NCBI GenBank assembly: GCA_030748575.1
Contig: JASMLR010000002.1
Coordinates: 89,939 to 153,938 of the forward strand
From: Phycisphaerales bacterium
GTDB taxonomy: Bacteria > Planctomycetota > Phycisphaerae > Phycisphaerales > SM1A02
Reading direction: 5' to 3'
Length of the DNA stretch: 64,000 nt
In this document: piece after piece, positions 49,096-60,427 of the stretch
How the letters are laid out: every line of letters starts with the position of its first letter
Numbering within the stretch: position 1 is the stretch's first letter
Notes under the pieces: generated by a model
Seen by the model: the letters and a program-made list of their open reading frames with translations, nothing else
Databases searched by the model: none
What the model was told of the DNA's origin: nothing
Program-made: the position numbers and the translations under genes

Positions 49096-51675
49096 CTACG
49101 GGCTCGGCGCCGTTCCTGCCGGTTCGTCGATGAAGCAACCGACCCCTGAGCCCGCCGGTTCGGGGTCCGTCGCGGTGACGGTGACCTCGTGGACAGTTCG
49201 TGGAAGCGAGCAGGTGTCGACACCGTCTCCGCGATCAAGCAGCAGGCTGAATGAATGTGCTTTCGCCGCATCCCAGTGATAGGTGTTGCTGCCGGATGCG
49301 CCCTGCGCGGGCGCTCGGGCTCGGAACTCGTCGCTGCCGCCAAGGTCAATCAGATACGCGATGGCCTGCTGAGCCGCGCTGCCTTGCGCCATCCCATCGG
49401 CCTCGTACAGATCATCGCCGCCCCGGTCCACCAGCGCTCCGGCCGCGATGTCCCAGGCCGCGCCCTGATCCGCGGCGGTCTTCCCCAGGTAGTGATCGTC
49501 TCCGGCGTCGTCAATGAGTACGCCAAACGCCTGGTGCACACCGAACCCCTGCGCGTAGCGGTTGCCGTGGTAAACGTCGTCGCCCGAGAAGTCGCGGAGG
49601 ACTCCCAGACTGTGGTAGTAGCCGCCGCCCTGGCTGAACTCGCCCGCCTGATACCGATCGTCCCCGGAAAGATCACACAGGACCCCAATGCCGCCCGCGG
49701 CGAACGTGCGATAGCCGAACCCCATGCCCTGGCTGAATGAGGCGTGCACACCCGGTGTGTCGTACGCGGAGGGGGTCGGCCCATCGGAGATGTGGATGTC
49801 GTCGCCCGCTTCGTCCAGGACCAGCCCGAATCCACGCGGTCCGCCGACCGCGTCAGTGAGATAGTCGCCGAGATAGATGTCGTCGCCCTTGCCCAGGTCC
49901 AGAATGATGCCAGCGCCATACATCGCCGCGCCGATCGACCAGCGGGTGCCCATGTAGATGTCGTCGCCGCCGCGGTCGATGATCATTCCCACGCCGAACG
50001 CACCCGCGCCGGTCGAGAAGGCGCCCCCTTGCTGCCCGTATCGATCGTCGCCTTCGTAATCATCGATGATCCAGGCCCCTAGCAGCCCCGCGGCCGGCCC
50101 TTGCCTCGCTGTGCCTGTGTACATGTCGTCACCATTGACATCCACGATCCGCCGATCTCCCAGCACCAGGGCCGTCGCCATGTAGTGGTCGTCTCCACCC
50201 GTGTCGTAGACCTCGTGGATGAGGGACATGTCGTATGTATTCCGGCCGGGGCCGCCGATGATCCGCCACCCGTCAGATGCGCGAGTGGCTGAGATGATCT
50301 CGCCGGTGACGCCGGTCGGGACGGCCTGGCCAGGCGCCGCTTCCGCACTCGGCGGCAGGCTGATGCCTGCGACGATGGTGCCGAAGTCCATCGAGGCGGC
50401 CCGGTCGAAGACGTCGAGTAGCCCGAAGTCCTGATGCTCAAGGTAGAAGGTGTCGGCAGGAACATGGAGGAGCCTCAGCACGGCGTCAGCAAACGCGGCG
50501 TCGACCGGGAACTGCTGGCCGGATGATGGTGGCGCGTCCAGCATGTCGCCCGCGATGGCCCGCGCGATGGCCGGGGCGGTGGACGGATCGGCCGGGATCG
50601 TGGTCAGCCGGTCCGACACCTCCGCGCCCAACTCCGGGAGTTGGAAGGGGTAGTCAAAGCCCGCCAGCACGCGGGAGAGTTGATTGGCATCCGTTTCTGT
50701 GGCAGCCCGCGCTGCGAGCACCGACGCCGTTTGCTGGGCGTGCCGCGTGAGTGCAGGCGGTATCGGGAGCGCGTCGAGGTCGAGGAGCCGGTGCGGCGGT
50801 GGCACCCAGATGCGATCGGAGCGGCGCGGCCTGCCGATGGTGCCCTGTGGCATGCGTGGCGTGACTGTGGCGACAACGGGGTCGTGGTCGGATGCCGGGT
50901 GGTCGCCGTCGCGGGGTCGCAACACGCAGCTCGCGTCGACCTGCCACTTGTCATTGAGCAGGATGTAGTCGATGCGGGGGCCCATGTGATCGGGGTCAAA
51001 GCCGTGGAAGGTGCCCAAGGCCTGATCTGTTGCGGGGGTGAAGCCGGCGCTGGTGAAGATCTGGAGGCACGCGCTTGCTGGACGTGCATTCAGGTCGCCC
51101 ATGATCGCAATGGGCATCGGACGGCCCCGCGACCACGCGTCCAACCGCGAGACAATCAGTTGGGCTGCCTCCACTCTGGACGTTGCGCCGCGATGGTCCA
51201 GATGGGTTCCGATGAGCATCATGATGGGGCCGGACGAACCCCACACTCGCACCTGCGCCCACGACGCCGTTCGGGGGAGTGCCGCATCCCATCCCACACT
51301 GGCCACCTCGTCCGGCGTTTCCGAGAGCCACAGGTGTCCGGACTTGATCACCTCAAGCCGGGACGAGTCGATCAGCAGGCCGCTGAACTCTCCCGAGCCA
51401 TGGCCGTCTCTGGTCGTGCCGATCTGAGTGAAGGACGGTTCCGCGGCGAGGATCGCTTGCAGTTGGTGGGGGAGTGCCTCTTGTACCGCCACCGCGGCGG
51501 GCCGCTGGCCGGCAATGGTGGACAGCACGAAGTCTCGCCGCGCAGGCCAGGCGTGCGCGCCATCTGCTGCCGTGTCGTAGCGGATGTTGAATGTCATGAA
51601 TGTGACGTCGGCCAATCCGCTCGTGGACAGGGTCGCGGACAGGGCTGCGGCGAGCAGGGGAGATTCGGTACGCAT
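49096..51675 (-). CDS. Exported endonuclease/exonuclease/phosphatase domain fused to G-D-D-x-Y repeats
   Basis: 859 residues with a signal (MRTESPLLAAALSATLSTSGLA). Residues 22-280 are an EEP-fold phosphoesterase with FMTFNIRYD, AVQEALPHQL, GTHLDHRG, GDLNARPA, DYILLNDKW and SDHDPVVA, the complete DNase I-like catalytic set. A helical middle (to about 480) follows. Residues about 488-822 hold some eleven units of roughly 26 residues: [IL]-D-x-x-G-D-D-x-Y-x(5-8)-Q-G-x(3-8)-[FY]-G-x-[LI], e.g. CDLSGDDRYQAGEFSQGGGYYHSLGVL. The acidic GDD turns suggest metal (calcium) binding in a beta solenoid. I do not know a named family for the repeats. Single gene. Confidence 0.8.
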   Translation of the reverse strand: MRTESPLLAAALSATLSTSGLADVTFMTFNIRYDTAADGAHAWPARRDFVLSTIAGQRPAAVAVQEALPHQLQAILAAEPSFTQIGTTRDGHGSGEFSGLLIDSSRLEVIKSGHLWLSETPDEVASVGWDAALPRTASWAQVRVWGSSGPIMMLIGTHLDHRGATSRVEAAQLIVSRLDAWSRGRPMPIAIMGDLNARPASACLQIFTSAGFTPATDQALGTFHGFDPDHMGPRIDYILLNDKWQVDASCVLRPRDGDHPASDHDPVVATVTPRMPQGTIGRPRRSDRIWVPPPHRLLDLDALPIPPALTRHAQQTASVLAARAATETDANQLSRVLAGFDYPFQLPELGAEVSDRLTTIPADPSTAPAIARAIAGDMLDAPPSSGQQFPVDAAFADAVLRLLHVPADTFYLEHQDFGLLDVFDRAASMDFGTIVAGISLPPSAEAAPGQAVPTGVTGEIISATRASDGWRIIGGPGRNTYDMSLIHEVYDTGGDDHYMATALVLGDRRIVDVNGDDMYTGTARQGPAAGLLGAWIIDDYEGDDRYGQQGGAFSTGAGAFGVGMIIDRGGDDIYMGTRWSIGAAMYGAGIILDLGKGDDIYLGDYLTDAVGGPRGFGLVLDEAGDDIHISDGPTPSAYDTPGVHASFSQGMGFGYRTFAAGGIGVLCDLSGDDRYQAGEFSQGGGYYHSLGVLRDFSGDDVYHGNRYAQGFGVHQAFGVLIDDAGDDHYLGKTAADQGAAWDIAAGALVDRGGDDLYEADGMAQGSAAQQAIAYLIDLGGSDEFRARAPAQGASGSNTYHWDAAKAHSFSLLLDRGDGVDTCSLPRTVHEVTVTATDPEPAGSGVGCFIDEPAGTAPSP

Positions 51676-52116: not shown

Positions 52117-52518
52117 TCAGTCACGCATGCGTCGCCGCATCGCGGACAAGGTGGCATCACTCACGTGGTGCTCCATGCCCTCGGCGTCGCGGGCGGCGTC
52201 GGCTGGCGGAACGCCGATGTGCAGCAGAAACTCAAGCAGGAGTTGATGGCGGGCCCGGGACCGCCTGGCCATGGCGGCACCCGCTGCGGTGAGGGTGCAT
52301 GGGCCGTACGGCTTCTTCTCGATCAACCCCTCGCCTGAGAGCCGCTGGAGAATGCGGGTCACGGTGACGTGTGTGACGCCCATTTTCGACGCCAGATCCT
52401 TGACCCGACAGGTCGATTGCGTCTCAAGGATGTCACCGATCGCTTCGACGTAGTCCTCGGCCGTTTCAGTGGCATGATCCTGCCGGGTCTTGGCAAAGGT
52501 ATTCGGGCGTCTGGGCAT
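52117..52518 (-). CDS. mntR: MntR/DtxR-family metal-dependent transcriptional regulator
   Basis: 133 residues from the ATG at 52518. A short Arg-rich start leads into AEDYVEAIGDILETQSTCRVKDLASKMGVTHVTVTRILQRLSGEGLIEKKPYGPCTLTAAG, the winged helix of MntR-like repressors, and the dimerisation/metal domain RHQLLLEFLLHIGVPPADAARDAEGMEHHVSDATLSAM with the EHH ligand block. It has no SH3 domain, like E. coli MntR. It is divergent from an Mn/Zn-type ABC importer, and the region between them holds two matching inverted repeats, so autoregulation and repression of the importer are likely. Confidence 0.92.
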   Translation of the reverse strand: MPRRPNTFAKTRQDHATETAEDYVEAIGDILETQSTCRVKDLASKMGVTHVTVTRILQRLSGEGLIEKKPYGPCTLTAAGAAMARRSRARHQLLLEFLLHIGVPPADAARDAEGMEHHVSDATLSAMRRRMRD

Positions 52519-52549
52519 GGCTGTCTCCACAGCGGTCCCCACCCGGGGG

Positions 52550-52578
52550 TTGACCGCGAACGGCCCGAAGTGTAGCAT
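52550..52578 (+). promoter_or_regulatory. Promoter of the metal importer operon
   Basis: TTGACC, 17 bp and TAGCAT lie 49 bp before the mntA ATG. The -10 is inside the first inverted repeat (52572-52585), so a bound repressor would block RNA polymerase. A GAGGA ribosome site is at 52614-52618. Confidence 0.65.
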
Positions 52579-52605
52579 TGGCTACCAGGTTGTAGCAAGT
52601 GCTAC
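52572..52605. promoter_or_regulatory. Twin MntR-type operators
   Basis: Two perfect inverted repeats of the form GTAGC-N4-GCTAC: GTAGCATTGGCTAC at 52572-52585 and GTAGCAAGTGCTAC at 52592-52605. Their starts are exactly 20 bp apart, about two helical turns, so two dimers would bind the same DNA face. They lie between the divergent regulator and importer genes, over the -10 and the start of transcription. Confidence 0.8.
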
Positions 52606-52626: not shown

Positions 52627-53583
52627 ATGAAGCGTCTCGTTTCCGGCTTATGCGTGGTACTCATGACGGCGGCGTCACTCGCCGCGCCGCTTGACATCGT
52701 CGCGACGACGGGCATGGTGGCCGACATCGCCAGGCACGTCGCCGGTGATCGCGCCACCGTTGTCAACATCATGGGCGAGGGCGTCGACCCGCATCTGTAC
52801 AAGCCCGTAGCCTCCGACGTTCGCCGCATCATGGGGGCCGATGTTGTTCTGTACAACGGGCTCAAGCTTGAGGGCCGCATGGGGGACATCTTCGAGCGAG
52901 TCGCGGCGCGGGGGCGATTTGTGCGGCCCGTTGCCGCCATGGTCGATGAGTCGTTCCTGCTGGAGCCGGCGGATCAGCCGGGCCACCCCGATCCGCACGT
53001 CTGGATGGATGTGGGCGCGTGGATGGCCGCCACCGAGGCCGTGGCCATCGCCTTGTGTCAGGCCGATCCGGAAGGATGCGCCGCGTATCGGTTGCATGCA
53101 TCTGAGTACATCCGCGAACTCACGGAACTGGACGGGTACGTACGAAGCGTGATGTCAACTATTCCCGAGAACCAGCGAGTCCTCGTCACGGCCCACGATG
53201 CCTTCAACTACTTCGGCCGCGCCTACGGACTGGAAGTCATGGGCATCCAGGGCATTTCGACCGAGTCCGAGGCGGGCCTGGCCGACGTGAGCGGGCTCGT
53301 GAATGTGCTGGTTGAGCGGCAGATTCCGGCGGTATTCGTTGAGTCCAGCGTCTCGGACAAGTACGTCCGCGCTCTTGTTGAAGGCGCCGCCGCGCGAGGG
53401 CACGCGGTTGTCGTGGGAGGCGAACTTTTCTCAGACGCCATGGGCCAGCCCGGCACGTGGGAGGGGACCTACATCGGCATGATCGATCACAACGCCTCGA
53501 CGGTCGCCAGGGCGCTGGGTGGGACCGTGCCTGAACGAGGGTTTCGAGCCGTCGCTGACACCGACGACGCGGCGAAACACTGA
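52627..53583 (+). CDS. mntA: Metal ABC transporter substrate-binding protein (TroA/MntA type)
   Basis: 318 residues with signal MKRLVSGLCVVLMTAASLA; no lipobox Cys, so a soluble periplasmic protein. Cluster A-I fold with candidate ligands His56 (DPHLYKP), His124 (DPHVWMD), Glu239 (FVESS) and Asp287 (MIDHN). A set of two His, one Glu and one Asp is the TroA/PsaA manganese arrangement; the long His-rich loop of zinc-specific ZnuA is absent. First of four genes in a tight operon. Manganese is the inferred substrate. Confidence 0.9.
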   Translation: MKRLVSGLCVVLMTAASLAAPLDIVATTGMVADIARHVAGDRATVVNIMGEGVDPHLYKPVASDVRRIMGADVVLYNGLKLEGRMGDIFERVAARGRFVRPVAAMVDESFLLEPADQPGHPDPHVWMDVGAWMAATEAVAIALCQADPEGCAAYRLHASEYIRELTELDGYVRSVMSTIPENQRVLVTAHDAFNYFGRAYGLEVMGIQGISTESEAGLADVSGLVNVLVERQIPAVFVESSVSDKYVRALVEGAAARGHAVVVGGELFSDAMGQPGTWEGTYIGMIDHNASTVARALGGTVPERGFRAVADTDDAAKH

Positions 53584-53586
53584 TCG

Positions 53587-54402
53587 ATGGATGCGCCTCG
53601 GTCGATCAGGTCACGTATTCCCCGGGGAGACGAGCATGATCCGAATGCCGCCCTGTCGATCCATGATCTGACGGTGGCGTACGACCGCCGGCCCGTCCTC
53701 TGGGACGTTGATCTGGATGTGCCGCCCGGGTGCCTCGCGGCGATCGTCGGACCGAACGGAGCGGGCAAGAGCACGCTCATCAAGGCGTGTCTGGACCTGC
53801 TTCCACGCGTCTCGGGAGATGTCCGGATGTTCGGATCGCCCTGGCGGTCCGTTCGTCATCGTGTGGCATACGTGCCGCAGCGGGAAACGGTGGATTGGGA
53901 CTTCCCGGTCAGCGCGCTGGACGTGGTCGCCATGGGGACCTACGGGCGGCTGGGCTGGTTGAGGCCGGTGGGCCGCGCGCAGAAGCGGGCAGCCATGGAA
54001 GCGCTTGACCGCGTCGGGCTGGCTGATCTGTCCAGCCGCCAGATCAGCCAGTTGTCGGGAGGCCAGCAGCAACGCGTCTTCCTCGCGCGGGCGCTGGCCC
54101 AGCAGGCGGATCTGTATCTCATGGACGAGCCCTTCGCCTCGGTGGACGCAGCGACCGAGCAGGCGATTGTGGAAGTGCTTCGATCCCTTCGTGAAGGTGG
54201 CGGGACGCTCGTTGTTGTGCACCATGATCTTCAGACTGTGGCCGAGTACTTCGAGCACGTCATTCTTCTGAACATGCGCGTCGTCGCCAATGGGCCGATG
54301 ACGCAGACGTTGACTGCGGAGAATCTGAGAGCGACCTACGGCGGCCGGCTCACCCTGCTGGAGCAGGCAGCCACCGCGATTGCCGCCTCAGAGGGGCGTT
54401 GA
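53587..54402 (+). CDS. mntB: Metal ABC transporter ATP-binding protein
   Basis: 271 residues, starting 3 bp after mntA. Walker A GPNGAGKSTLIKA, Q-loop YVPQRETVDWDFPVSALDVV (the WDFPV segment is characteristic of Mn/Zn importers), signature LSGGQQQRVFLARAL, Walker B LYLMDEPFASVD and the switch His in VVVHHDL. It hydrolyses ATP to drive the two permease subunits encoded next. A longer N-terminal tail (MDAPRSIRSRIPRGDEHDP) than usual is present. Confidence 0.93.
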   Translation: MDAPRSIRSRIPRGDEHDPNAALSIHDLTVAYDRRPVLWDVDLDVPPGCLAAIVGPNGAGKSTLIKACLDLLPRVSGDVRMFGSPWRSVRHRVAYVPQRETVDWDFPVSALDVVAMGTYGRLGWLRPVGRAQKRAAMEALDRVGLADLSSRQISQLSGGQQQRVFLARALAQQADLYLMDEPFASVDAATEQAIVEVLRSLREGGGTLVVVHHDLQTVAEYFEHVILLNMRVVANGPMTQTLTAENLRATYGGRLTLLEQAATAIAASEGR

Positions 54403-54406
54403 TGGC

Positions 54407-55717
54407 ATGTCGCTTGCTGCTTCGCTCTTTGACACGCTGCTGCTGACCGACTGGAACACCCGGGTCGTCGTGCTGGGCACATCGATGTTCGGCTGCGCGG
54501 CGGGGGTTGTGGGGACGTTCCTCGTGCTTCGGAAGCGAGCGCTTCTGGGCGACACGGTCAGTCACGCCATGCTCCCTGGCGTCGTCACCGCCTTTCTGGT
54601 GATGCAGGCCTTTGGAGCAGGGGGGAAGTCGTTTGCAGGGCTTTTGCTTGGCGCAGCACTTGCGGGCATGGCAGCTGCCATGGCGATTCCTGTGCTGCGC
54701 CGCGCGACGCGGCTCAAAGACGATGCGATCATGGGGGTCGTGCTGGGCGGCGGCTTTGGACTTGGTATTGCGCTGCTTGGAGTGGCGCAGTCCTTGCCGG
54801 GCGGGAATCAAGCGGGCCTGGAGTCCTTCATCTACGGTCGGACGGCGTCGATGGTCCGAAGCGATGCGGTCGGTATCGGTGTGACGGCCTGTGTGGCGCT
54901 GCTGGTCTCAGCACTGCTCGCCAAGGAGTTTCGGCTTCTCTGCTTTGATGAGGCGTTCGGTCGATCCATCGGTCGGCGTGAACGGCTGCTTGACCTCGGA
55001 CTCATGCTGCTCGCCGTGGGGGTGACGGTCGTGGGACTCCAGGCGGTCGGGCTGATCCTCGTCATCGCGCTGCTCATCATCCCCGCCGCCGCTGCGAGGT
55101 TCTGGACCGACAACTTCATACGGGTGGTGGTTCTTGCGGGGTTCATCGGCGCGGGAGCGTGTTGGGTCGGGGCCTCCATCAGTGCCTTGGCGCCCAAGTT
55201 GCCTGCGGGAGCCATCATCGTCCTGACGCTGGCCGGCATGTTCTGCGTGTCCATGGCGCTGGGCGCACGTCGTGGGGGGATCCGCCGCGTTGGGTCCGCG
55301 CTTCTGCTGCGGAAGCGGACCGGGCGGCAACATCTTCTCCGCGCTGCTTCCGAGTTCATGGAGTCGTCCGGATGCGCAGCGTGGCGGATCGAGGACCTTC
55401 GGCCGATGCGGAGCTGGTCCGCGTCCCGGCTTGCCGGGCTGCATCGAAAGGCGGCCCGCACCGGGGACATTCAGCGATCTGGCAGGGGGTGGACCCTGAC
55501 GCCATCCGGGGCCGAGGCCGCCGCGCGAGTGGTCCGAAACCACCGCCTTTGGGAGATCTTTCTCATACGGCACGCGGACATTGCGGCATCGCACGTCGAC
55601 CGCGACGCGGACTTTGTCGAACACGTTCTGGGGGATGAACTTGTCGCCGAGTTGGAGTCCATGCTGGACACGCCGGATCCGCCGCGGAGCCCGCATCCGA
55701 TTCGAGGTTCCGCATGA
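54407..55717 (+). CDS. mntC: Metal ABC transporter permease with C-terminal DtxR-like module
   Basis: 436 residues from the ATG at 54407. Residues 1-285 are an ABC-3 permease (VGTFLVLRKRALLGDTVSHAMLPGVVTAFL, DEAFGRSIGRRERLLDLGLMLLAVGVTVVGLQAVGLILVIALLIIPAAAARFW). From about residue 298 the chain continues into a cytoplasmic winged-helix-like region (LLRAASEFMES... LAGLHRKAARTGDIQRSGRGWTLTPSGAEAA) and a DtxR-type dimerisation/metal segment (VVRNHRLWEIFLIRHADI... ) with His396 and Glu405-His406. This module is extra to the plain permease and could sense metal or bind the regulator. Overlaps mntD by 4 bp. Confidence 0.85.
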   Translation: MSLAASLFDTLLLTDWNTRVVVLGTSMFGCAAGVVGTFLVLRKRALLGDTVSHAMLPGVVTAFLVMQAFGAGGKSFAGLLLGAALAGMAAAMAIPVLRRATRLKDDAIMGVVLGGGFGLGIALLGVAQSLPGGNQAGLESFIYGRTASMVRSDAVGIGVTACVALLVSALLAKEFRLLCFDEAFGRSIGRRERLLDLGLMLLAVGVTVVGLQAVGLILVIALLIIPAAAARFWTDNFIRVVVLAGFIGAGACWVGASISALAPKLPAGAIIVLTLAGMFCVSMALGARRGGIRRVGSALLLRKRTGRQHLLRAASEFMESSGCAAWRIEDLRPMRSWSASRLAGLHRKAARTGDIQRSGRGWTLTPSGAEAAARVVRNHRLWEIFLIRHADIAASHVDRDADFVEHVLGDELVAELESMLDTPDPPRSPHPIRGSA

Positions 55718-57021
55718 CCATTGACTACGACGGCTGGATCATTCTGATCGGCGTGCTGGTGGCCGCGTGCTGCGCTATTCCGGGATCATGGCTGGTGGTG
55801 CGGGGCATGGGCATGATGGGAGATGCCATCTCCCATGCGGTTCTTCCGGGGATTGCATTGGGGTTCATGTTCAGCGGGAGCCGCTCAGGTGGATGGATGT
55901 TTCTTGGCGCTGCGTTGTCCGCGGCCGCGGCTGCGGTGTTGACCCAGACCATTCACAGGTGGGGGCGGGTTGAGCGAGGCGCCGCGATGGGCCTGGTGTT
56001 CACGACGTTCTTCTCGCTCGGACTTCTGCTGATCGTCCAGACGGCTGACAGCGTTGACCTTGATCCAAACTGTGTGCTCTATGGGTCCATCGAGTTGGCC
56101 CCACTCGACACGCTTTCGATGGGCGGGGTGGATGTGCCTCGCATGATTGTCCCACTCGGACTGGTGCTGGCGGCCAATGTTCTGGTGACGATCGTGCTGT
56201 ACAAGGAACTGCTGGCAAGTTCCTTTGATGCAGCGCTCGCCACCGCCCAGGGCTTCAGTGCCCGGTGGCTTCACCTCGGGCTCATGGTGCTCACGGCCGC
56301 GACGTGCGTGGCATGTTTCGAGGCTGTCGGGAGCATCATCACCGTGGCCTTGCTCGTGGCCCCTCCTGCAGCGGCGCTGCTGCTCACCAGACACATGCGA
56401 TGGGTCATCGTGTGGGCGACTGTGCTGGGCAGTCTGGCGGCGGTGGTCGGGCACGTGTCTGCGGTGACGGTCCCTGGATGGATCCTGGCAGCGCCGCTGG
56501 ATACATCCTCGGCCGGCATGATGGCTGTGGCCGCCGCGGGCATCTTTCTGCTCGTGGCCCTCGTGGCGCCCGGGCGAGGGGTGCTGATGCGGCGGATGGC
56601 GGCGCGGCGCGATGCCATGCAGATTGCCATCGAGGACGCGCTCGGGCTGCTCTTTCGGCTGGAGGAGCGATCTGTCCACGCCAGCCGGGCGGAGGTTGAG
56701 GAACTCCTGCGTTCAGACGTGCGGGTGGGATCCCGACTGGGGGCGGTGCTTGGCCGGCTTCGCCGCGGCGCCCTGGTCGCCCTGCACCAGGACACCTGGC
56801 GGCTGACGGACCACGGCAGGGCGGAGGCCAGAACGCTGGTGCGGGCGCACCGACTGTGGGAAACCTATCTGGCGGGCCACGCGAGTATTCCTGACAGCCA
56901 CCTCCACGCGGCGGCGGAGCGGCTTGAGCACGTCAGCGACGCGGCCGTCGCCGAAGCGCTGGAGGCTGAGGTGGGGCAGACGAGGGATGATCCTCACGGC
57001 CGACCAATCCCGCCGGGTTGA
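55714..57021 (+). CDS. mntD: Second metal ABC transporter permease, also with DtxR-like C-terminus
   Basis: 435 residues. ABC-3 permease in residues 1-290 (GSWLVVRGMGMMGDAISHAVLPGIALGFMF, KELLASSFDAALATAQGFSARWLHLGLMVLTAATCVACFEAVGSIITVALLVAPPAAALLL). From about residue 298 comes a winged-helix-like part (EDALGLLFRLEERSVHASRAEVEELLRSDVRVGSRLGAVLGRLRRGALVALHQDTWRLTDHGRAEA) and HRLWETYLAGHASIPDSHLHAAAERLEHVSDAAV, with His396, Glu405 and His406 at exactly the positions of mntC. Both permeases thus share the fusion. Last gene of the operon by spacing. Confidence 0.85.
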   Translation: MTIDYDGWIILIGVLVAACCAIPGSWLVVRGMGMMGDAISHAVLPGIALGFMFSGSRSGGWMFLGAALSAAAAAVLTQTIHRWGRVERGAAMGLVFTTFFSLGLLLIVQTADSVDLDPNCVLYGSIELAPLDTLSMGGVDVPRMIVPLGLVLAANVLVTIVLYKELLASSFDAALATAQGFSARWLHLGLMVLTAATCVACFEAVGSIITVALLVAPPAAALLLTRHMRWVIVWATVLGSLAAVVGHVSAVTVPGWILAAPLDTSSAGMMAVAAAGIFLLVALVAPGRGVLMRRMAARRDAMQIAIEDALGLLFRLEERSVHASRAEVEELLRSDVRVGSRLGAVLGRLRRGALVALHQDTWRLTDHGRAEARTLVRAHRLWETYLAGHASIPDSHLHAAAERLEHVSDAAVAEALEAEVGQTRDDPHGRPIPPG

Positions 57022-57068
57022 GTCGGTCCACCAATGGTGACGCGTGGCAGGCGATAGGATGCGGCCCC

Positions 57069-58514
57069 ATGGCACTCCCCTGGAAGGCGGCCCCAACTGG
57101 CTATGACGAAGCGTTGGCAGCGAACGACACCGCGCGGGGGCTCTATCGGTCTGTGATCGAGACGCTCGGAGACTTTGACGCCGCCGACGTTCGCCGCCGA
57201 GAGGAACTGCAGGAAGTGTCTCTTGTCAATCAGGGGATCACGTTCACGGTCTACGGTGAAGAAGAGGGTACGGAGCGGACGTTCCCGTTTGATTTCGTTC
57301 CGCGGATCATCGGCTCGGATGAGTGGGAGTCGCTTGAGAAGGGCCTGGTGCAGCGTGTCACCGCCATCAATCTGTTCCTTGAGGACGTCTACGGTGACCA
57401 GCGGTGCCTGCGTGAAGGCGTGGTTCCGTTTGATCTTGTGCTTTCGCGGAGCGACTTCAGGCGTGAGTTGATTGGGACACGGCCGAGGCACGGCGTGTTC
57501 ACTCACATCACTGGAGTTGACCTGCTGCGAGGCGAGCAGGGAGAGTTTCTCGTTCTCGAGGACAACTGCCGGTGCCCGAGCGGCGTCTCGTACGTGCTGG
57601 AGAATCGCAACCTGCTCTCCCGGGTGTTCCCGGAGATCTTTGCGAACTATGGCGTGCGGCCTGTCGATTCCTACCCGCAGATGTTGCTCGATGCGCTCAA
57701 GTTCTCGGCGCCGCGCGGGCGTGAGCGGCCTTCGGTGGCCGTGCTGACGCCCGGTCTCAACAACAGCGCCTACTTTGAGCACTCGTTTCTCGCCCGTGAA
57801 ATGGGCGTGCCCCTGGTGGAGGGACGTGACCTCATTGTTGAGAATGATCAGGTCTCCATGCGAACCACACGCGGCCGTCAGCGGGTGGACGTGCTGTACC
57901 GCCGCGTGGACGATGCGTTTCTGGATCCGGTTGTTTTCAACGCGGGCAGCCTGCTTGGTGTGCCGGGGCTCATCCATGCCTGGCGTGCGGGCAACATCAC
58001 GATTGCCAATGCGCCGGGGGCGGGCGTGGCGGATGACAAGTCCATCTATCCCTGGATGCCCGACATCATTCGGTTCTTCCTCGACGAAGAACCGCTGCTG
58101 GCGCAGGTTCACACCCTGATAGGGCGGAAGCCTGATGACGCCGCCTACATTCGCGAGCACCTCTCGGAACTCGTTGTCAAACTGACCGATGGTGCGGGCG
58201 GCTACGGCATGCTGGTTGGCCCGACTGCATCGTCGGCCGAGATCGCCGAGTTCGCTACCGTCTTCGAGGAGAGGCCTGAAGCCTACATTGCCCAACCGCT
58301 GGTCGAGTTTTCCTCCCACCCGACCTGGACCGGGGACGGGTATGCGCCTCGTCGCGTCGACATGCGACCGTTTGTGTTGTACGGAGAGTCGATACGCGTC
58401 CTTCCCGGTGGACTCACCCGGGTGGCATTGCAGGAAGGCTCCTACGTTGTCAACTCTTCCCAGGGAGGTGGCAGCAAGGACACGTGGGTGCTCGCGGAGG
58501 AACTCCTGCGATGA
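57069..58514 (+). CDS. Circularly permuted type 2 ATP-grasp protein
   Basis: 481 residues from the ATG at 57069; an earlier TTG frame start overlaps mntD and is less likely. Typical blocks are FTVYGEEEGTERTFPFDFVPRIIGSDEWESLEKGLVQRVTAINLFLEDVYGDQ, LLRGEQGEFLVLEDNCRCPSGVSYVLENR, and a C-terminal KLTDGAGGYGMLVGP with PRRVDMRPFVLYGE. The family is found in a fixed cluster with an alpha-E protein and a transglutaminase, as here, and is thought to make peptide-like bonds on an unknown substrate. Confidence 0.92.
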   Translation: MALPWKAAPTGYDEALAANDTARGLYRSVIETLGDFDAADVRRREELQEVSLVNQGITFTVYGEEEGTERTFPFDFVPRIIGSDEWESLEKGLVQRVTAINLFLEDVYGDQRCLREGVVPFDLVLSRSDFRRELIGTRPRHGVFTHITGVDLLRGEQGEFLVLEDNCRCPSGVSYVLENRNLLSRVFPEIFANYGVRPVDSYPQMLLDALKFSAPRGRERPSVAVLTPGLNNSAYFEHSFLAREMGVPLVEGRDLIVENDQVSMRTTRGRQRVDVLYRRVDDAFLDPVVFNAGSLLGVPGLIHAWRAGNITIANAPGAGVADDKSIYPWMPDIIRFFLDEEPLLAQVHTLIGRKPDDAAYIREHLSELVVKLTDGAGGYGMLVGPTASSAEIAEFATVFEERPEAYIAQPLVEFSSHPTWTGDGYAPRRVDMRPFVLYGESIRVLPGGLTRVALQEGSYVVNSSQGGGSKDTWVLAEELLR

Positions 58515-59461
58515 GCGTCATGCTGTCGAGATCCGCTGAGAACATCTACTGGATGGGGCGATACCTGGAGCGGGGCGCCAATCTGTGCCGCATGCTGCAG
58601 GTGGCCGAGCAACTGACTGTCGAGATTCGCGGTCTGGCGCCGGACGAGGCGGTGGGATTCTGGGCTGGCTTCGCGGATGTGTATCCGGGGTCTCCTCCTT
58701 TCGATGAGGGCATCGATGTTGACGCTGCCCGCATGGCCGGTTTGCACGCCTGGCTGCTCGGGCAGGGCAACGTACTCTCCGTCGCCACCTCGGTTCATCA
58801 CGCCAGAGAGAACGCTCGGGCCATTCGGGAGTACCTCACTCGGGAAGTCTTTGAGCAGATCAACGAGTGCTGGCTCCGGCTCGACGCGGGGCTGCGGGGT
58901 GAGGCCGGGCCCGATGTTCTGCTCGGGCAGGTGCAGCAGGCAATCTTCGGGATCGGCGGCACCATCAGCCGCACCCTGATTCGTGACGAAGCCTGGGTCT
59001 TTCTCGACGTGGGCGTCATGTTGGAGCGGGTGTACCGCGTGCTGCTTCTGCTTCGCCACAGGCTTCCGATGCTCATGGCGACGCCTGATGACATCGACAT
59101 CCCCGTGCATCATGCGTTGCTTCGAGCCGTGTTGCGATCGGCAGGCTCGCTTGAGAATTACCGCCGGGTTCACGGAGCGGCACTGTCACCACGACAGGTC
59201 TGGAGTTTCCTGTTCTTCGATCAGTTGTGTCCCCACAGCGTTGCATTCGGGATCTCCAACATGCAGGAGGACCTCGCCGGAATCGAGCGGGGCGGCGTGC
59301 TTACCGATGCGGCCATGCAGGTGGGGCGGCTGGCCTCGCAGTTGCGGTACGAGGCGCAGGATCTACTGGGCCGCCACGATTTCTCGGCCGTTTGCGACGG
59401 GCTTGCGGCAGACGTCGATCGAATTCATGAGTCGCTCACACGGTTGTACTTCACGGTATAG
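58511..59461 (+). CDS. Alpha-E domain protein (DUF403)
   Basis: 316 residues from the ATG at 58511, overlapping the previous stop (ATGA). It starts MSVMLSRSAENIYWMGRYLERGANLCRML, the DUF403/alpha-E signature, and continues as a helical bundle with TSVHHARENARAIREYL, FLDVGVMLERVYRVLLLLRHRLP and FLFFDQLCPHSVAF. It is the standard partner of the permuted ATP-grasp protein upstream. Confidence 0.93.
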   Translation: MSVMLSRSAENIYWMGRYLERGANLCRMLQVAEQLTVEIRGLAPDEAVGFWAGFADVYPGSPPFDEGIDVDAARMAGLHAWLLGQGNVLSVATSVHHARENARAIREYLTREVFEQINECWLRLDAGLRGEAGPDVLLGQVQQAIFGIGGTISRTLIRDEAWVFLDVGVMLERVYRVLLLLRHRLPMLMATPDDIDIPVHHALLRAVLRSAGSLENYRRVHGAALSPRQVWSFLFFDQLCPHSVAFGISNMQEDLAGIERGGVLTDAAMQVGRLASQLRYEAQDLLGRHDFSAVCDGLAADVDRIHESLTRLYFTV

Positions 59462-59467
59462 AGACGC

Positions 59468-60427
59468 ATGCTGCTTGGAATTGAACATCATCTGCGTTTT
59501 GAATACTCGGCCTTTGTCCGTGAATCGCATATCGAGATTCGCGTGGAACCTCGCGTGCTCCCGGGGCAGGCGCTTCATGACTTCGATCTGGCAATCGGAC
59601 CGCACGCGCAGCCAAGCCGTCACGAAGACTGGCTTGGCAATTCCATGCACTGGTTCTCGATCACCGACTATCACGATCGCGTCGAGGTCGCGTGTCGATC
59701 ACTGGTGGAAACGAGCCCCCCGGAGATCGACCCGCAGACGCTCGAAGCGGCCATTGACGGCCTGCCCGATCGGCGGGACACATGGGACTTTCTTCAGTTC
59801 GGAGGTCCCGTCGTCCGGAGTGAGCGGCTCTCGCTGCTGTCGGAGGAACTGGAGCTCCCTGCCTGCGAGACCGTGGGTGAAGTCATCGGACGGCTCGCCG
59901 GCTCGCTCAAGGGCCGCATTGCGTATCGACCGCTGGTCACGCATGCCCATTCGACCAGTGACGATGCGCTTGAGGCGGAAGCGGGCGTCTGTCAGGACTT
60001 CGCTCACATCGCGTTGGGCCTCCTGCGTCTCCGCGGCGTTCCATGCCGCTACGTCAACGGATACTTGCATGTGGAGAACGCCTCTCGCCCATCGGAGAGC
60101 CATGCATGGATTGAAGTATGGACACCTCAGCATGGTTGGATCGGCTTCGATCCAACGCATGCCTGCAGCGTGGGCGAGCGGCATGTCGTGATCGCGTACG
60201 GCCGGAGCTACGTCGATGTGCCGCCGAACCGCGGCATCTTTCGAGGCGCGGCCGAAGAGTCACTGACCGTCGAAGTGAGAACGAGCCCGATGCAGCGCCG
60301 CGAGCGGCACCAGGCCGGCGCGCCGCTCATCATGGATGTGCCCGTCTTCGCAGAGCCGCCGGACCGCGTCGCCGCCCATGAGCAGCGGGGCGATGAGGCC
60401 GCTGCGCAGCAGCAGCAACAGCAGTAG
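59468..60427 (+). CDS. Transglutaminase-like cysteine protease family protein
   Basis: 319 residues. An N-terminal transglutaminase-associated beta domain (HHLRFEYSAFVRESHIEIRVEPRVLPGQALHDFDLAI) precedes the papain-like core with Cys175 (GVCQDFAH), His212 (SHAWIEVW) and Asp228 (GFDPTHACSVGERHVVIAYGRSYVDVPP), the full catalytic triad. The C-terminus ends in six Gln after Ala/Arg-rich sequence, longer than most homologs. Third gene of the ATP-grasp/alpha-E/transglutaminase cassette; may cleave or crosslink the product of the ATP-grasp step (inference). Confidence 0.93.
   Translation: MLLGIEHHLRFEYSAFVRESHIEIRVEPRVLPGQALHDFDLAIGPHAQPSRHEDWLGNSMHWFSITDYHDRVEVACRSLVETSPPEIDPQTLEAAIDGLPDRRDTWDFLQFGGPVVRSERLSLLSEELELPACETVGEVIGRLAGSLKGRIAYRPLVTHAHSTSDDALEAEAGVCQDFAHIALGLLRLRGVPCRYVNGYLHVENASRPSESHAWIEVWTPQHGWIGFDPTHACSVGERHVVIAYGRSYVDVPPNRGIFRGAAEESLTVEVRTSPMQRRERHQAGAPLIMDVPVFAEPPDRVAAHEQRGDEAAAQQQQQQ

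Follow-up and report, generated by a model that had tools for sequence, protein, structure and literature searches.

DtxR-type modules on both permeases of a metal ABC importer: candidate metal sensors resident on the transporter

Introduction

In Chlamydia, YtgC, the permease of a metal ABC operon, carries a C-terminal DtxR-like domain, YtgR (fusion CT069/CTL0325), which is cleaved off and acts as an iron-dependent repressor (PMC5599777, PMC6504234, PMC7755916). In Chlamydia no iron-dependent regulator other than YtgR has been identified (PMC6504234). A review reports permease-DtxR-like fusions in 11 phyla and raises the possibility that uncleaved YtgC might also repress (PMC5599777). A different kind of precedent is provided by MetNI and ModBC, whose cycle is halted when the substrate they transport binds to a cytoplasmic domain at the C-terminus, a behaviour termed trans-inhibition (PMC10710835). 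Here we describe a metal ABC importer whose two permeases, P1 and P2, are encoded at positions 54407-57021 of a 64,000-nucleotide stretch of DNA from a Phycisphaerales bacterium (the window). Both permeases carry a DtxR-type module, and a separate MntR repressor is encoded next door.

The fusion of a permease to a DtxR-like domain is, as such, already known; what this locus presents is a fusion on both permeases together with a separate repressor. An earlier sequence-only reading of the window had stated that it knew of no described mechanism for such modules, which was mistaken as regards the fusion itself, YtgC-YtgR having been described, in its cleaved form. Among the literature matches listed (openly licensed text), no title dealt with double fusions or with the gating of transport by such a domain. 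On the evidence presented below, it is somewhat likely that the fused modules are cytoplasmic metal sensors resident on the transporter, derived from a repressor of the DtxR/MntR type, which would slow uptake by trans-inhibition while the free MntR controls transcription. This proposal draws on sequence conservation, on predicted structures and on analogy with MetNI and ModBC.

Both permeases carry a DtxR-type module

Pfam profile searches identify both proteins as ABC-3 permeases (PF00950; P1 3e-55, 187.9 bits; P2 4e-41, 141.9 bits; cut-off 20.1), and both extend into a region that matches Fe_dep_repr_C (PF02742), the metal and dimerisation domain of DtxR-type regulators, above the curated cut-offs (P1 5.4e-15, residues 365-424; P2 1.7e-19, residues 365-433). 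PF01325, the helix-turn-helix (HTH) domain of DtxR, had no match in P1 or P2 in the same search at E<=1. There was likewise no match to PF02742 in the ATPase encoded at 53587-54402; the DtxR-type domain sits on the permeases, not on the ATPase. The stop codon of P1 and the start codon of P2 overlap by ATGA (55714-55717), and the two genes are divided as follows.

54407..55717, plus strand: permease 1 (P1), 436 amino acids from the ATG at 54407; ABC-3 transmembrane domain and C-terminal DtxR-type module
55277..55498, plus strand: P1 residues 291-364, a tether helix (291-321) leading into a winged helix whose recognition helix has diverged (AlphaFold secondary structure; conservation)
55499..55678, plus strand: P1 residues 365-424, Fe_dep_repr_C metal/dimerisation domain (PF02742; H379, E383, D398, D402, E405, H406)
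55714..57021, plus strand: permease 2 (P2), 435 amino acids; ABC-3 transmembrane domain and C-terminal DtxR-type module
56569..56805, plus strand: P2 residues 286-364, a tether helix (286-318) and winged helix (AlphaFold model; conservation)
56806..57012, plus strand: P2 residues 365-433, Fe_dep_repr_C metal/dimerisation domain with a DtxR/IdeR fold (PF02742; H379, E383, H398, E402, E405, H406, then DPHGRPIP at the end)

The last transmembrane helix of P1 spans residues 267-285, and the C-terminal tail beyond it comprises about 150 residues. In the full-length AlphaFold model of P1 (mean pLDDT 91.4, pTM 0.86), this tail consists of a winged helix and, after it, the metal domain, and the same two parts are predicted for P2, of which the module only was modelled (mean pLDDT 94.0). 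Foldseek aligned the P1 model with PsaC (7kyp; TM 0.89 by target length) and its tail with the DtxR-family chain 1ddn (TM 0.83 by target length, rmsd 2.0, E 4e-3), while structure comparison of the P2 module with IdeR/DtxR gave an E value of 8.5e-9 and a Z score of 16.5 across 133 residues. The lists returned by the fold searches (VIA-align, Foldseek) consist mostly of DtxR and permease chains, and the lack of other folds in them is uninformative. The P1 module begins with a continuous, confidently predicted helix (residues 291-321), which starts five residues past the last transmembrane helix and bears His309; the matching long helix of P2 (286-318) bears Asp308. Since P2 ends just past DPHGRPIP, it has no SH3 domain.

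The structure predictions drew on relatives from a named set of 80 loci, which were kept of at least 583 relatives passing and were found by patterns from the module itself. One prediction used 43 of the 66 named fused P1 proteins together with the P1 of the window, and the other used the 18 named fused P2 modules together with the P2 of the window. The extension on both permeases is a DtxR-type two-domain module, as the sequence-only reading had proposed: by domain profile, PF02742 is found in both and PF01325 in neither, and by predicted fold, both contain a winged helix.

The metal site and the DNA-reading part

Conservation was compared across the named set and a first set of 60 loci, which had been chosen mainly for fused-length open reading frames. 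Twelve permease rows lacking a module (P1 from L039, L048, L051 and L053; P2 from L016-L020, L036, L056 and L057) were omitted from the counts, as was the free-regulator row of L007, which is really a permease fragment at a contig end. One locus was fetched twice, as L019 and as L097, and one of the 44 planctomycete free regulators belongs to neither free class of the comparison.

In the alignment with free regulators, the ligand columns are 8/10, 79, 83, 98, 102, 105 and 106, and they are occupied in P1/P2 by H309/D308, H379, E383, D398/H398, D402/E402, E405 and H406. In DtxR the ligands are numbered 79, 83, 98 and 105/106. The ligand identities rest on a sequence alignment together with two papers (PMC10317159, PMC6860424). 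Under a permissive count that accepts any of D, E, C, M, H and N at position 102, the full ligand set is kept in 183/190 fused modules (182/189 distinct modules), namely 53/55 P1 and 47/51 P2 modules and, from the named set, 66/66 P1 and 17/18 P2 modules. The seven exceptions are two P1 modules with Arg at 79 and five P2 modules with Thr, Ser or Gly at 102, whereas E105 and H106 are invariant in all 190. Under the same definition 64 of the 98 free regulators pass, the short MntR proteins being without a Glu at 83. Positions 8, 98 and 102 of P1 fall mainly into two sets, H-D-D (64/121) and N-H-E (34/121).

The sequence-only reading had pointed to His396, Glu405 and His406 at identical numbers in both permeases. 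The numbering is confirmed by the open reading frames and by the alignment columns, and the homologues retain these residues, so that neither the profile matches, nor the predicted fold, nor the homologues spoke against what that reading had observed; His396, however, was rejected as a canonical ligand, for it aligns to DtxR column 96, two residues ahead of the ancillary-site His98. In the aligned sequences it is instead a mark of fused modules, being present in 174/190 of these vs 0/98 free modules, with the exception of three extra single-permease modules that lack it. Trp382 (the W of HRLWE) was also considered as such a mark, at first with 106/106 fused vs 1/44 free modules, and was later dropped as not diagnostic because 29/54 named free regulators have it too.

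Conserved ligands and an extra His that could add a metal contact would also be found if the modules received or held the metal as it exits the pore, or if they activated the transporter when metal is present. Such a role in delivery or buffering is without precedent among the literature matches listed, and the site corresponds, by comparison with homologous structures, to that of a domain-bridging switch. It is accordingly regarded here as rather improbable.

The DNA-reading part behaves differently from the metal site. Mean pairwise identity in the recognition helix of fused modules is 0.26 (P1, n=55), 0.21 (named P1, n=66), 0.26 (P2, n=51) and 0.26 (named P2, n=18), vs 0.60 (n=23), 0.53 (n=20) and 0.38 (n=54) in three sets of free regulators; the corresponding values for the metal domain, in the same order, are 0.59, 0.58, 0.51 and 0.52 vs 0.57, 0.69 and 0.54. 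By this measure of sequence identity, the recognition helix of the fused modules is no longer conserved, while their metal domain is conserved much as in free regulators. Furthermore, an HTH profile of free regulators, built from planctomycete loci, finds every listed free regulator of the named set save one 95-residue piece, yet matches 0/84 fused modules of that set at E<=0.01 (one of the 84 coming from a locus that is also in the first set). The fused modules thus share with MntR, DtxR and IdeR the order of winged HTH and metal/dimerisation domain, the fold (Z up to 16.5) and the ligand columns, but differ from them in being attached to a membrane protein, in their non-conserved recognition helix and, for the permeases of the window, in the absence of a PF01325 match.

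These results bear on whether the modules might act as YtgR does, that is, as metal-dependent transcriptional repressors, either cleaved or bound to the membrane. Such a role has been described for YtgC-YtgR, in a review that counts fusions in 11 phyla (PMC5599777); moreover, domain order and fold are the same, and the recognition-helix regions are basic, their mean net charge being +2.8 (P1) and +3.1 (P2), against +1.4 for free regulators. Nevertheless, the poor conservation of the recognition helix and the failure of the fused modules to match the free-type profile speak against a repressor, and two differing modules on each transporter would mean two diverged repressors. The tether, predicted as a confident and continuous helix, also speaks against a released domain, although it is compatible with cleavage. 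In YtgC-YtgR, one permease is fused and its domain is cleaved and represses, whereas here both are fused, and in contrast to that system as described, the modules here lack a conserved recognition helix and are accompanied by a separate MntR and its likely operators. The comparison is made with YtgR as described; no locus titled as chlamydial is among the 80 kept of at least 583 relatives passing. These differences argue against a repressor role here, which we consider unlikely.

The free MntR and its likely operator

The gene mntR lies on the minus strand, divergent from a four-gene importer unit on the plus strand that ends with the two permeases. The remaining features of the locus are listed below.

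52117..52578, minus strand: free MntR repressor of the short two-domain type (NF008273 MntR, 160.5 bits, cut-off 153; PF01325 and PF02742)
52572..52585, no strand: likely operator 1, GTAGC-N4-GCTAC (one of two genome copies)
52592..52605, no strand: likely operator 2, GTAGC-N4-GCTAC (the other genome copy)
52627..53583, plus strand: periplasmic metal-binding protein of the ZnuA family (PF01297, 1e-74)
53587..54402, plus strand: ABC ATPase (PF00005, 1e-28)

The separate repressor noted by the sequence-only reading is therefore present, its score lying over the NCBIfam cut-off for MntR. Its true start is probably internal to the listed open reading frame, because the listed start codon falls inside operator 1. 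The binding protein matched the AztC, MntC and EfaA models, all under their cut-offs, and the best model for the ATPase, that of Deinococcus MntA (NF053840), was also below its cut-off (234 vs 400 bits). In the genome (2.38 Mb, 85 contigs, 97% complete), profile searches found PF01325 once, in the free MntR, and PF02742 three times, in MntR, P1 and P2.

The repeat GTAGC-N4-GCTAC occurs twice in this genome, both times in the gap between mntR and the binding-protein gene, whereas the reversed control pattern has 32 copies. Its distribution was followed in 45 loci of the same order, picked mainly for their fused modules: 44 have one or more of these, and the 45th (L057) is unclassified. The repeat was found at 16/23 loci with short MntR, at 0/12 with a free regulator of the DtxR type and at 4/10 with no regulator nearby. 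The repeat therefore goes with the free repressor, as it co-distributes with the type of free regulator. From its position, rarity and co-distribution, it is a likely MntR operator, and its two copies suggest an MntR regulon of one operon. A dedicated MntR with an operator-like repeat at the operon, tracking the type of free regulator, is a further point against the fused modules being repressors in the manner of YtgR.

The same 45 loci bear on another suggestion of the sequence-only reading, namely that the fused modules tether the repressor: their dimerisation domains would pair with free MntR and keep it at the membrane. The fused modules and MntR do both have the PF02742 dimerisation domain, and the genes are encoded together. 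However, fused modules accompany short MntR (23 loci), a DtxR-type regulator (12) or no regulator nearby (10), and in some relatives whose permeases are unfused (L154-L156) a free regulator is present nonetheless. In the tree described below, the permease modules also group apart from the free regulators, with modest support. Tethering is hence disfavoured, and we judge it highly improbable.

Two neighbours of the importer were noted. A trio encoding CP_ATPgrasp, Alpha-E and transglutaminase proteins (57018-60427) begins inside the final codons of P2 and could share a transcript with the importer. On the other side, the large protein encoded at 49096-51675 (minus strand) has an Exo_endo_phos domain at its N-terminus; its long C-terminal part, in which GDD(x)Y-like motifs recur, received no Pfam assignment at 1e-5.

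Distribution and history

Frequencies of fusion in the 60-locus and 80-locus sets are biased by selection for the fusion or the module, and a fairer sample is provided by 71 genomes of the order, whose classes were tallied by hand among the matches listed, with weak matches (E above 1e-43) taken as other permeases. Both permeases were fused in 32/71 of these genomes. A further 6/71 had one fused permease gene alone; four of these six were checked at the locus (L015, L157-L159), and two (G215, G236) were taken from the listing. In G234, P2 is fused and the extension of P1 is unmatched. The class was undetermined in 4 genomes, and 16 had no match or weak matches only.

In the named set, P1 carries a full module at 66/80 loci, accompanied by a plain P2 (42), a P2 with a full module (18), a P2 with a tail only (2) or no P2 seen (4). 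By record title, the carriers include Bacteroidetes, Verrucomicrobia, Planctomycetota, Omnitrophota, Latescibacterota, Sumerlaeota and Holophagales, with the culturable Pontibacter and Algoriphagus (L067, L080) among them, and a free regulator lies within the fetched stretch at 54/80 loci. At 13 of the 80 loci (L098, L108, L110, L111, L114, L118, L122, L124-L126, L128, L132 and L141), both permeases have tails of at least 45 residues without a metal domain, and at one more P1 alone does. These tails measure about 90 residues on P1 and about 110 on P2 (183 in L111); those inspected resemble winged helices by eye, not by profile. Each of the 13 loci has a separate full-length DtxR-type regulator, and several of the carriers are, by title, of the Flavobacteriales type (Aequorivita, Kordia, Aquimarina). 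The metal-less tails suggest that the winged helix has a role at the permease.

That such tails exist, and that the module can be absent altogether, would be in keeping with a structural remnant, an old fusion that only stabilises the permease and keeps its metal site for folding. On the other hand, the ligand columns hardly vary, whereas identity falls to about 14-27% in helices 2 and 3 and in the wing that lies between them, and the P1 sites fall mostly into the H-D-D and N-H-E sets, which shared ancestry could explain too. A remnant of this kind is, in our estimation, quite improbable.

A tree was built by a quick method from 101 of 301 modules and 131 columns, half of its forks being unresolved. 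A branch with SH-aLRT 86 separates all permease modules from the free and FeoB-linked modules, and under a midpoint root three single-permease modules are outermost among the permease modules. The sequence tree fits a single old fusion with later tandem duplication and several losses, with modest support.

Related arrangements beside FeoB and on an ABC ATPase

A related module of winged HTH and metal domain is also encoded next to FeoB in the same order, as a separate protein that is not fused to the transporter. The eight FeoB-linked modules included in the tree cluster by themselves (SH-aLRT 92). At L144-L152 and L161, of the same order and phylum, open frames of 328-384 amino acids have the winged helix and metal domain of the fused kind; FeoA repeats are present in the two that were scanned, L148 (2101-3189, plus strand) and L161 (2301-3338, plus strand), and L148 has an apparent N-terminal membrane helix. 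A FeoB_N protein adjoins the winged HTH and metal-domain protein at L144 and L147. It is possible that such proteins serve as a metal sensor for FeoB.

A further arrangement was seen at L162 (2238-3344, minus strand), where an ABC ATPase (PF00005, 1.6e-36) carries a C-terminal Fe_dep_repr_C domain (1.1e-25), a layout nearer to MetN and ModC. The FeoB-linked and ATPase-fused forms fit a wider recruitment of DtxR-type metal domains to transport systems.

A proposed mechanism

In DtxR, one of the ligands at the primary site is supplied by the DNA-binding domain, and on metal binding at this site the first turn of the helix that matches the tether unfolds; apo DtxR and IdeR are mostly monomeric and dimerise when metal binds (PMC10317159). 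The tether helix matches this unfolding helix and bears a ligand, and thus the moving part of the repressor would here be the tether to the pore. The fused modules appear to have lost conserved sequence-specific DNA reading while keeping the metal site and, we infer, the conformational switch. Of the interpretations offered by the sequence-only reading, a sensor on the transporter is the one that best fits the pattern of sequence conservation, while tethering of the repressor is not favoured.

As proposed, cytoplasmic metal, probably Mn2+, would fill a site bridging the tether helix and the metal domain. The filled site would then pull on or loosen the tether helix to the last transmembrane segment, or the modules would pair, or both, and the importer would be slowed by trans-inhibition, after translation. 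Transcription would be handled apart, by the free MntR acting at the two likely operators. Given the MntR neighbour and the types of ligand, Mn2+ is the most probable metal, with Fe or Zn also possible. That the effect would be inhibition, rather than activation, is suggested by the precedents of MetNI and ModBC. The likeness to these is one of proposed working mode only: their regulatory domains lie on the ATPase and have other folds, whereas here the domain lies on the permease and has the fold of a metalloregulator.

Several observations weigh against this proposal. The relative that has been described, YtgR, does work as a repressor, and the recognition helix of the fused modules is more basic than that of free regulators, so that these modules may bind DNA or lipid in some other way. 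Among the three single-permease fusions, L159 is a weak match (1e-4) to the free-HTH profile. The structure models are of single chains, and in that of P1 the region around the ligand loop is weaker (block means of 78 and 67, residues 391-410). MntR of Bacillus halodurans is a dimer without metal and barely moves on binding Mn (PMC6860424), and the switch of DtxR may therefore not apply to a site of the Mn type. Lastly, among the matches listed for the 71 genomes, a single module was found on P1 only in 3 and on P2 only in 3, and 6 had a comparable pair of permeases with neither fused, showing that modules are dispensable, although two of the four unfused-pair loci inspected (L155, L156) may represent another type of transporter. 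Because transporters with one module or a single permease exist, pairing of the P1 and P2 modules within a transporter is not obligatory, and it was rejected as a general rule.

Implications

A broader reading, which we put forward only tentatively, is that a whole class of ABC-3 importers gates itself by a domesticated DtxR switch, in which the tether is the unfolding helix and the metal acts directly on the pore. The class would extend to at least the Planctomycetota, Bacteroidota and Verrucomicrobiota, its parallels being the modules next to FeoB and the one carried by an ABC ATPase. If this were true, two cousins of one repressor family would control transcription and transport. Trans-inhibition in Mn/Fe ABC importers would then be built from a gene repressor, and mutants of the ligands would be predicted to over-accumulate metal with transcription unchanged. 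While the fusion in Chlamydia has been read as the source of a cleaved repressor, the pattern seen here suggests that many bacteria leave the domain attached to the transporter, where it would sense metal.

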